A DNA stretch of 20,324 bases, from the IMG/VR virus record IMGVR_UViG_3300013133_000088, positions 1-20,324 of that record; one strand, given 5' to 3'. Made by a program: the position numbers and the translations under genes. The notes beneath the pieces are model-generated. The model was given only the letters and a program-made list of their open reading frames with translations. It did not search any database and had not been told where the DNA came from. Source of the DNA: a virus. Positions 4,399-17,237 of this stretch are shown one piece after another (within the stretch, counting starts at the first letter, position 1; every line of letters begins with the position of its first letter).

Positions 4399-4980
4399 AT
4401 GCCTAATCCACAGAAACAAAAAGGTTCAAGCTTCGAGAGAGAAGTAGCACGATATCTAAGCGCGTTATATAACGAGAGTTTTATTCGTGCGCCCGGATCA
4501 GGTGCATATGTGGGTGGTAAAAATCAAGCACGTACACAAATATTGCATGAGGGACAGATACGAAGTTTCAAGGGTGACATTGTTCCAGGACAAAGTTTCG
4601 TGAAATTCAATGCAGAATGCAAAAGTTATGCTGATTTTCCCTTTAATCTAGTGCTAGCAGGAGAATGCAAGGTATTAGACGGATGGTTAGATCAGATGAT
4701 GGAAGTTGCAGATCCTAGTGATATAAACATATTGTTTATGAAGTTTAATAGGAAGGGTCGCTTTGTCGCTGTACAATCATCATTAACTTGGATCACAGAT
4801 CATTTTTTATACTACACATCAACTAAACATAAAGACTGGCTTATTCTAGAGTTTGATAACTTTTTTAAGCATAATGCAGATTTATTAAAAAGATATTGTT
4901 CAGGCACAGCAGACACAAAGTCACCTCCTCCTCAAGAAAGCATACAGCTAATCACAACTCCCGTTTATATTCAAAACTAG
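4399..4980 (+). CDS. PD-(D/E)XK family nuclease, possible Holliday-junction resolvase
   Basis: Predicted 193-residue protein. The N-terminal 80 residues match the core of a PD-(D/E)XK nuclease: KGSSFEREVARYL (acidic residues E13, E15), RAPGSGA, then FKGDIVPG (D60) and FNAECKSY (E73, K75), which form the D...ExK metal-binding site. The G-S-FEREV start and the GSG motif are typical of archaeal Hjc/RecU-like resolvases and some type II restriction enzymes. The rest is mixed alpha/beta with a Pro-rich C-terminal tail. It sits 36 nt after gp46 with its own sigma70-type promoter, which suggests early expression and a role in recombination or branched-DNA processing. No endonuclease VII (gp49) is visible in the window, so a resolvase role is attractive but inferred. 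Degradation of host DNA is an alternative. Confidence 0.75.
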   Translation: MPNPQKQKGSSFEREVARYLSALYNESFIRAPGSGAYVGGKNQARTQILHEGQIRSFKGDIVPGQSFVKFNAECKSYADFPFNLVLAGECKVLDGWLDQMMEVADPSDINILFMKFNRKGRFVAVQSSLTWITDHFLYYTSTKHKDWLILEFDNFFKHNADLLKRYCSGTADTKSPPPQESIQLITTPVYIQN

Positions 4981-5279
4981 TTTGATAGGGAATGCCCTAT
5001 CCTCCTTGAGCAAGTCTAGTTTACTAGTCACCTGCGGATCTGGAGTAAAGATACTTAATTAAAGTATCGTATACCGAGAGGGCAATCGACAGGTTTGCGA
5101 ACCCTCAATGAGTATATACCTTATTTCGTTTTGCGGGTATATAACATGCGTTATAGTAGATGAGAGTCTACAACTACAGTCCATAAACTTTACAGTATAA
5201 CCGGTAGCGTATAACATCACAAAAGGGTAGTTATACGGGAACAAACGACATGGCGGATGGGCAGGCAAGTCCAACGTTT

Positions 5280-5302
5280 GGTAGTGCTGTGATAGCACTA
5301 CC
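5280..5302. repeat. Perfect 9-bp stem-loop
   Basis: GGTAGTGCT (5280-5288) and AGCACTACC (5294-5302) are perfect complements around a 5-nt loop, GTGAT. There is no T-run on either side, so it is not a standard rho-independent terminator. It is the strongest stem in the gap. Confidence 0.7.
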
Positions 5303-5374
5303 ATGGCTTCAAAGCGGCAAGTAATATAAATCCATATAATATAAAAATACTGAGTGAGCGATAGCGAACGAAGT

Positions 5375-5393
5375 AGTTGTCCGAAGGACAACT
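5375..5393 (-). terminator. Stem-loop at the 3' end of the minus-strand baseplate unit
   Basis: AGTTGTCC (5375-5382) and GGACAACT (5386-5393) form an 8-bp stem with a 3-nt loop, directly after the stop codon of the 74-residue gene at 5394. On the minus strand the stem is followed by ACTTCGTTCGC and not by a T-run. Its position suggests a 3'-end or stability element rather than a canonical terminator. Confidence 0.45.
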
Positions 5394-5618
5394 TTAAAAG
5401 AATGGTAGTTGAGTCTTTTTGGTAGTTTCCAGATTTTGTTCTATTATAGTATTAATATGTTTCCTTTCTTCTAGGCTCATATTAAGTACATCAGTATAGG
5501 AAACGGATCCGCGCATATACCATGCCATTTGTAATGCATTTCTTTTTATATCTGTAACTTCGTTCTCGTAACCTGTTATAAGCTTCTGTAATCTATCGGG
5601 CGGTAGATTAAGAAGCAT
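5394..5618 (-). CDS. Small protein coupled to the gp26-like baseplate gene
   Basis: Predicted 74-residue, mostly helical protein. The C-terminal half (MAWYMRGSVSYTDVLNMSLEERKH, then NLETTKKTQLPFF) has a YMRG...LSxEER...ETTKKTxLPFF pattern that I associate with short proteins encoded next to gp26-type baseplate genes in T4-like phages. The family name is not certain. The start codon shares one base with the stop of the upstream gene (TAATG), so translation is probably coupled and the two proteins may act together, for example as hub assembly factors. No membrane segment or signal peptide is seen. The stop lies next to an 8-bp stem-loop. T4 gp51, the hub assembly catalyst, is much larger, so equivalence to gp51 is not claimed. 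Confidence 0.7.
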   Translation of the reverse strand: MLLNLPPDRLQKLITGYENEVTDIKRNALQMAWYMRGSVSYTDVLNMSLEERKHINTIIEQNLETTKKTQLPFF

Positions 5619-6442
5619 TACCCGAAAAAATCGGTAGGATTTAAAGTGTAAGGTTGTTTATATTGATGTGAGCATTCACTACAAGTTATCTCTAATGGCT
5701 TTAGTTCAGTAGCCGTTTTGAGTTCGGTATTGTAATCTCGCACTGCATTATATGTCTGTTTGTCGCAGTTTTGCAGGAAATCTGCTATGTAATCTTTATT
5801 ATCGACTACGGTGTTCGGTGTCTTAACATATTCTATGGCTTGTGTCAAAATCTCCATAGTTAGTTCCGTGACTTTACGAAGTGCTTCTTCTGTGATTTTG
5901 TTTTTCTGATCTATATCTTTGGTATTTTCTACTTGCTGGAAAAGCTTCTGTAGCTCAAACTGCCCGATGCTAGCTGCGTTCATCTCTTTATATGATAAAG
6001 GTCTGATTTTAATAGCTAAGTCACCTAGTTCAAGTTCTTTAGAATAATCTCCTGATTTCAATGTAGCTAATACAGCCACAAGATTTACGCCATATGTTCC
6101 TTCTGCATTACATTTTGGACATTTGCTTTCTATCTCTAGATTGCTGTTTCCACCTGCAGCCTTTATAGCGATCAATATGCTGTCAAGGTCTACACTACTT
6201 AGTTGCCATGGGTCTTTTATTGACGGCACACAGCTTTTGATAAGCTCAGTCACTGCTGTGCCGTTGTATAATGCATCCGGTGTCTTTGCAGTAATCTCGT
6301 CTATAGCGGTCATGGGGTAGACAGGTAGTTCTCCGGTTTCAGGCATGTCAACTACCCCCGGCGGATATCCATGACCACCGCTAGGTAGTTTTAGATATAC
6401 TGCAGGTCTACGGAAATACTGTTTCAATGGATTATCATTCAT
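5618..6442 (-). CDS. 26: Baseplate hub protein, T4 gp26-like
   Basis: Predicted 274-residue protein of the T4 baseplate gp26 family. The N-terminus is characteristic: NPLKQYFRRPAVYLKLPSGG, then VDMPETGELPVYPMTAIDEI (32-50), TPDALYNGTA and a segment around CVPSIKDPWQ. Two CxxC pairs, C108/C111 and C254/C257, probably form one zinc site joining the middle and the C-terminus. T4 gp26 is 208 residues, so this version is longer. In T4 the protein is needed for baseplate hub assembly. The start at 6442 has GAGG at 6448-6451, 5 nt upstream on the minus strand. An AATAAATA late-like octamer lies 50 nt upstream. The gene is divergent from the tape-measure gene and overlaps its downstream partner by one base. 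Confidence 0.85.
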   Translation of the reverse strand: MNDNPLKQYFRRPAVYLKLPSGGHGYPPGVVDMPETGELPVYPMTAIDEITAKTPDALYNGTAVTELIKSCVPSIKDPWQLSSVDLDSILIAIKAAGGNSNLEIESKCPKCNAEGTYGVNLVAVLATLKSGDYSKELELGDLAIKIRPLSYKEMNAASIGQFELQKLFQQVENTKDIDQKNKITEEALRKVTELTMEILTQAIEYVKTPNTVVDNKDYIADFLQNCDKQTYNAVRDYNTELKTATELKPLEITCSECSHQYKQPYTLNPTDFFG

Positions 6443-16782: not shown

Positions 16783-16808
16783 GGGCGCATATGCGCCCTT
16801 TCTTTTTT
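16783..16808 (+). terminator. Rho-independent terminator after gp23
   Basis: GGGCGCAT (16783-16790) and ATGCGCCC (16791-16798) form a perfect GC-rich hairpin, followed by TTTCTTTTTT. It ends the capsid transcription unit. On the minus strand it lies just after the HNH-like gene's stop but lacks an equally good T-run. Confidence 0.93.
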
Positions 16809-17175
16809 ATGATATACGTATATCACTATCAACTGTCATATTCATAACAGATTTACGGCCCTTCTTCAATCGTTTTTGATATAATCTGCTACAGTTGGCG
16901 CATAATGTTTTTAGATTACTTTCTTTTTTGTTCTTTTTATTACCGTCTTTAAAAACTAAATCCATTTGACATTTATCTTGTGCTTTGAAATTACAAAACT
17001 CACACTTGATTTCTTTATGTTGCAGGTGCTTATGCTTATCGCTATAAAGCATCTTGCTACAATCGACACAATATTTGTGCCATTTTTTATAACCTAGTTT
17101 ACTTTTTCCATTATATTTTGCTGGGACTATTCCGCAATGGCTACAAACAGGTCTAGATTTTTGTTTTGTTAGCAT
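16807..17175 (-). CDS. HNH-family zinc protein with altered catalytic site
   Basis: Predicted 122 residues, very rich in Lys and Cys. Zinc-type CxxC pairs occur at CSHCG near the N-terminus, CVDC, CEFC and LCANC. The segment CQMDLVFKDGNKKNKKESNLKTLCANC (quoted in parts: CQMDLVFKDGN, then NLKTLCANC) lines up with the HNH motif C-x-x-D-x-D-H-I-D-G-N...NL..LC..C, but the expected D-H-I is V-F-K, so the catalytic histidine is missing. The frame is open upstream to ATG 17217 (136 residues). ATG 17175 is preferred because the minus-strand TCTAAATA, a near-match to the late octamer, ends 5 nt before it, as at the portal gene. It lies antisense between gp23 and the fibre genes, a typical spot for a mobile endonuclease. 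A non-catalytic DNA-binding role is possible. Confidence 0.65.
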   Translation of the reverse strand: MLTKQKSRPVCSHCGIVPAKYNGKSKLGYKKWHKYCVDCSKMLYSDKHKHLQHKEIKCEFCNFKAQDKCQMDLVFKDGNKKNKKESNLKTLCANCSRLYQKRLKKGRKSVMNMTVDSDIRIS

Positions 17176-17180
17176 GATTA

Positions 17181-17188
17181 TATTTAGA
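17181..17188 (-). promoter_or_regulatory. Near-match late octamer TCTAAATA at the HNH-like gene
   Basis: The minus strand reads TCTAAATA, then TAATC, then ATG 17175. The portal gene has CATAAATA, TAATA, ATG. The shared layout is the reason to propose a start at 17175 and late transcription of this gene. Confidence 0.35.
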
Positions 17189-17237
17189 AAAAAGTTCTCC
17201 ATGGGTCTTTTTTCCATACCTTAGATTTTGCATATTT

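Follow-up and report, generated by a model that had tools for sequence, protein, structure and literature searches.

Covariation Points to a Large Structured Non-Coding RNA with Two Pseudoknots in T4-Related Jumbo Phages

Results

The window considered here, i.e. the whole stretch of DNA that was analysed (20,324 nucleotides), is a 20-kb virus record and represents only a fragment of a genome. The contigs of its relatives reach 524 kb, and the phage can therefore be placed among the T4-related jumbo phages. Its genes include a late sigma factor, SbcCD (gp46/47-like), a T4-type portal and the Gp23 capsid protein (Pfam, PHROG). The present work is concerned with a gap of 413 nt, delimited by ORF ends, in the following setting:

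4399–4980, + strand (that of the RNA): RusA-like/PDDEXK resolvase gene (Pfam PF24608, 82 bits; PHROG 244)
4912–4922, + strand: motif GACACNNNGTC within the resolvase gene, a motif that precedes the RNA at the majority of type I loci
4981–5393, + strand: whole predicted structured non-coding RNA (type I), ca 400–410 nt, from homologues and covariation, with presumed ends
5394–5618, − strand: small facing ORF, without Pfam or PHROG match
5618–6442, − strand: facing T4 gp26-like baseplate hub gene (Pfam T4_baseplate, 62 bits; PHROG 150)

The other intergenic gaps of the window, also measured between ORF ends, span only about 8–105 nt. The original prediction, of a gene-free gap far larger than the others and lying between converging genes (4399–4980 on the + strand, 5394–5618 on the − strand), is thus borne out. 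No long conserved reading frame was seen across the gap among relatives. A − strand ORF at 5059–5391 with a TTG start was considered as a real gene and rejected, because neither the length nor the strand of the open stretches is constant from one relative to another. The gap had also been described as free of T-runs. No intrinsic-terminator-like site was found in 4981–5393, nor is there a GC-skew switch at the gap. The window contains no tRNA or tmRNA according to ARAGORN, and Rfam likewise gave no such match. Elsewhere in the window, an HNH endonuclease-like ORF (16807–17217, − strand, weak PHROG match) is oriented opposite to its neighbours; it separates the capsid gene from the repetitive ORFs next to it.

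The + strand of the gap folds better than all 100 dinucleotide shuffles, with a z-score of −4.67 (−3.54 for the − strand), and the fold is therefore more than chance. Since folding of a single sequence is weak evidence, relatives were sought. We gathered 100 IMG/VR loci by means of the resolvase and hub proteins, and an iterated profile of the gap located the element in 89 of 101 loci. Pattern scans for two internal motifs, which are independent of these proteins, added further loci. The RNA, called type I in the following, is carried by at least 270 IMG/VR-derived loci of uncultured giant phages, a total that is a lower bound, and a few of these have split or short extra matches. At two loci (L158 and L263) the profile matches the 5′ domain and the core separately, which suggests inserts or long H3 arms.

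The genomic place of the type I RNA is fixed. In nearly all loci where flanking sequence is present, the resolvase lies upstream on the same strand, 15–184 nt away, the exceptions being L257 and L263, in which no resolvase was detected. The hub gene faces the RNA where that flank is present. Each of 15 large contigs (up to 524 kb) carries a single copy.

The covariation analysis was based on an alignment of 97 type I sequences below 90% identity, with a mean identity of 57.5%. In an APC-corrected G-test against a null that was simulated along a FastTree tree, 12 column pairs reached E < 0.05, and all 12 are pairs of the structure model. The stated structure, which consists of 60 pairs in 10 helices, was then counted on 44 diverse sequences. 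Paired cells amount to 96.8% compared to 82.5% for shuffled alignments, 40 of the 60 pairs show double changes (25.8 shuffled), and the covariation score is 0.437 (0.158 shuffled). None of 500 shuffles reaches the observed pairing, double-change or covariation values, and slid controls pair at most 42.5%. The absence of compensatory changes in relatives had been named beforehand as what would refute the prediction; the count is 417 doubly changed cells, against 118 for the shuffled alignments. It should be pointed out that the slid control is partly favourable, because the structure was read from the same alignments, but the double changes are not accounted for by this.

In the type I alignment there are 99 G-U pairs and 16 A-C mismatches, and it follows that the conserved molecule is the + strand RNA. 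Two of the covarying helices are pseudoknots, which are missed by plain folding. Judged from these alignments, the gap almost certainly encodes a conserved structured RNA. Covariation demonstrates the fold of the RNA and not its function. The parts of the RNA are as follows:

4984–5001, + strand: H0, 5′ hairpin, 7 bp in the window; covaries among relatives (z −4.3)
5002–5045, + strand: H1, 5002–5005 with 5042–5045; 100% paired in the 44 sequences, nearly invariant
about 5014–5031, + strand: H2, variable hairpin enclosed by H1, identified by eye from the alignment
5050–5068, + strand: H3, variable hairpin from the predicted fold, with variable complementary arms in relatives
5072–5206, + strand: H8, 5072–5076 with 5202–5206, closing the four-way junction; 99.1% paired, three pairs with double changes
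5078–5106, + strand: H4, 5078–5082/5102–5106 and 5086–5088/5098–5100; 100% paired, five double-change pairs, two at E < 0.05
5108–5147, + strand: H5, 5108–5110/5145–5147 and 5113–5119/5137–5143; 99.5% paired, nine double-change pairs; its loop takes part in pseudoknot 2
5126–5248, + strand: pseudoknot 2, 5126–5131 with 5243–5248; 99.6% paired, five of six pairs double-changed, three at E < 0.05
5150–5201, + strand: H6, 5150–5155 with 5196–5201; 96.6% paired, three double-change pairs
5180–5240, + strand: pseudoknot 1, 5180–5182 with 5238–5240; 100% paired, three of three pairs double-changed, E < 0.05
5209–5236, + strand: H7, long variable hairpin; 86.1% paired, ten of ten pairs double-changed
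5259–5270, + strand: short direct repeat R1, before H9 (permutation test)
5279–5303, + strand: H9, nearly invariant hairpin; 97.4% paired, little variation (z −5.4)
5314–5322, + strand: short direct repeat R2, after H9 (permutation test)
5350–5373, + strand: H10, weaker 3′ hairpin from the predicted fold, with similar hairpins in relatives
5375–5393, + strand: H11, 3′-terminal hairpin without T-run; in 94 of 97 loci, covarying stem (z −4.3)

Five stem-loops had been predicted. The region is indeed rich in hairpins, but this count is too low, as the relatives support 10 core helices (two of them pseudoknots) together with the 5′ hairpin and the 3′ hairpins. The predicted perfect 9-bp stem at 5280–5302 is found in H9 (5280–5288/5294–5302) and extends to at least 10 pairs, 5279–5303. 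The loop of H11 is GAA in 62 of the 97 loci examined, and this hairpin may mark the 3′ end of the RNA. In many relatives (e.g. L136 and L178), a further hairpin comes after H11; its loop is similar to AAATGAATA, and by eye this hairpin resembles a two-way terminator.

More distant contigs, from sister jumbo-phage clades, retain the resolvase, the gap and the hub, and many of them carry an RNA with a different core, called type II. Its marker, GGGGUACAGGNNNACCGCCYC, gave at least 120 matches. The resolvase is close upstream on the same strand in 64 of 148 type II loci and the hub faces the RNA in most, while 32 of the 148 show neither gene. The two types never occur in one locus. A profile of the type I 5′ domain gave 64 matches to type II loci, 62 of them at the expected place (best E 5e-11). 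On the basis of this homologous 5′ domain, present in a large subset of type II, and of the shared locus, we assign the two types to one superfamily. The model of the type I core (model R1) gave no match in type II, where an H6-like helix beside an ACAG..ACCG motif covaries. By eye, the 3′ hairpins of type II resemble those of type I.

In both types, short direct repeats flank a 3′ hairpin. Those of type II co-vary letter for letter under the tree-aware null; they have the form CUC-X-A and UCU-X-A with a variable centre of 4–6 nt (e.g. L336, L353, L402 and L406). For type I, the two repeats of a given RNA resemble each other more closely than swapped repeats do (0 of 1000 permutations, in a test that ignores relatedness), and the column test was not significant (E about 3). 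A search by eye for a sequence in the molecule with which the direct repeats could pair found none.

We now turn to the upstream motif. Of 97 type I loci, 85 have GACACNNNGTC ahead of the RNA; elsewhere in 757 kb the motif occurs only six times, which makes it nearly unique per contig. Most type I loci have it in frame 0 of the resolvase gene, whereas in the type II loci that have it (21 of 89) it is mostly in frame 1 or 2. Because the reading frame differs between the types, the motif is taken to be kept as a nucleotide sequence. Its distance to the RNA varies, and it may be a site at which the RNA is controlled or processed. No promoter was recognised for the type I RNA, although an AT-rich stretch immediately before H0 is conserved.

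A comparison with Rfam had also been suggested in the original prediction. It was performed with Rfam 15 and gave no match for the RNA, either in the window or at 20 further loci, and nothing credible at relaxed thresholds. The GOLLD, ROOL, RNase P RNA, group I intron and group II intron models did not match the type I RNA either. Two other Rfam families match some type II contigs but, above the gathering score, neither the window nor the three type I contigs tested. Polynucleobacter-1 (RF01718) matches three type II contigs (L411:643–787, L386 and L382) just upstream of the type II core, occupying the expected 5′-domain position in the contigs that have it, and cow-rumen-2 (RF02947) matches one (L469:1308–1413), across the core. 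The former is recorded for Burkholderiales and for fresh water/estuary (PMC2864571), and the latter appears in an Rfam table (PMC11701678), its only mention in the literature searched. Both appear to be pieces of larger phage-contig RNAs, and the connection of the two to one phage locus appears to be new within the literature searched. The two families could be extended and joined.

The hairpin pattern had no match in bacterial and archaeal genomes. The sole bacterial-contig match of the core pattern (L287) was dismissed as chance-like: it is a 20-mer inside an ORF, and by our own estimate about so many are expected by chance. A blastn search of the type I RNA against phage records returned no real relative, and further searches turned up nothing beyond short chance-like matches. 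Models R1 and R2, which represent two sub-domains, found nothing convincing in the cultured phages PA5oct, Phosso, SCTP-2 and Atu_ph07 or in more distant contigs. In two of these cultured jumbo phages, Phosso (L284, 2259–3274) and PA5oct (L283, 3017–3681), a long unannotated gap separates the resolvase from the hub. In a sister clade (L081:3597–4107 and L080), a gap of ca 500 nt at the same locus is matched by neither RNA model; in L081 it ends in an H11-like hairpin, and this gap is perhaps a third RNA type.

Discussion

The type I RNA falls into a known kind, namely the large structured phage RNAs, although the family itself is absent from Rfam and no description of it was found in the literature searched. 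GOLLD and ROOL are large pseudoknotted RNAs of phages and prophages with unknown function (PMC12286853). The type I RNA shares their large size, pseudoknots and phage-borne nature, but it is smaller and has no Rfam match, and while GOLLD and ROOL are often located near tRNA genes, the window has none. RNA-seq has also revealed long non-coding RNAs in two phages, ICP1 (about 800 nt) and K (PMC7567579, PMC9241854). These transcripts too come from gaps without ORFs and have no known function. They are encoded at other loci, those of phage K near tRNA genes, and blastn found no relative of the type I RNA in the phage records searched.

Homologues, a covarying fold, a defined strand, a single copy per contig and a fixed place are established for the type I RNA, which in our assessment is more likely than not made or processed separately to act in trans. 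In the mechanism that we propose, 4981–5393 would be the gene of a non-coding RNA in a T4-related phage akin to the jumbo phages. Transcription of its + strand would begin at a promoter of its own, or else the transcript of the recombination genes would read through it and be processed, to yield an RNA of ca 410 nt, the ends of which we infer to be capped by H0 (5′) and H11 (3′). The core would be a four-way junction locked by two pseudoknots, and therefore a compact body is expected. The 3′ arm would present the nearly invariant H9 between two similar short repeats, and it is on this arm that a protein or a second nucleic acid would most likely dock. During infection the role would most likely be exerted in trans, as a structural RNA or as the RNA component of an RNP.

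In the main rival the RNA would act in cis, as a 3′ UTR element that stabilises the transcript of the resolvase (and of the gp46/47-like genes), blocks exonucleases or regulates the preceding gene. The RNA is indeed on the resolvase strand, 15–184 nt downstream where the flank is present and strictly placed behind this one gene, and has strong hairpins at both ends. However, such a size and a pair of pseudoknots would be unusual in a bacterial 3′ UTR element, the RNA carries a conserved hairpin and leader of its own at the 5′ end, and the locus-specific upstream motif suggests separate control. We thus regard the cis-acting element as possible but rather unlikely. A packaging or virion RNA, similar in role to the phi29 pRNA and forming a structural part of the motor or particle, would fit the adjoining head, tail and portal genes, the single copy and the conserved exposed hairpin arm. 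The type I RNA is, on the other hand, larger than pRNA and has no sequence or Rfam link to it, and T4-type packaging motors are not known to require an RNA; such a role is quite improbable.

Readings at the DNA level or without any functional RNA, both of which had originally been offered beside the structured RNA, fare worse, while the structured RNA itself is strongly supported. An origin, recombination or packaging site, with hairpins acting as single-stranded DNA, could be argued from the neighbouring recombination genes, the unique site per genome and the locus-specific DNA motif nearby. It accounts neither for the tolerance of G-U, as opposed to A-C, in the pairing (99 vs 16) nor for the pseudoknots, the gap shows no GC-skew switch, and we consider it very improbable. 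That the gap is mere space between two facing transcripts with terminator hairpins can be given hardly any probability at all. The genes do face each other, and the extra hairpin past H11 in some relatives looks, by eye, like a two-way terminator, but two transcript ends would need no conserved 400-nt fold, the gap contains no terminator-like site, and this reading is already contradicted by the covariation of a 60-pair structure that spans the gap.

Returning to the trans-acting RNA, we have also considered a more far-reaching and speculative proposal, to which we assign a low probability. The RNA would be one branch of a modular superfamily at a fixed T4-related jumbo-phage locus, with clade-specific 5′ and core modules and a retained 3′ arm in which a hairpin stands between two short direct repeats that co-vary. 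These repeats would serve as a variable recognition code for a partner in trans, which would make the RNA a guide-like or partner-specific machine of an undescribed kind.

Conclusion

The present results add a large phage RNA family, strongly supported and doubly pseudoknotted, and they tie two unexplained Rfam motifs to one jumbo-phage locus. That the RNA has a fixed place, and is present in essentially every clade member examined, suggests that its role in the phage cycle is a core one. Its binding partner would therefore bear directly on what large phage RNAs do, a question that has been open since GOLLD and ROOL.
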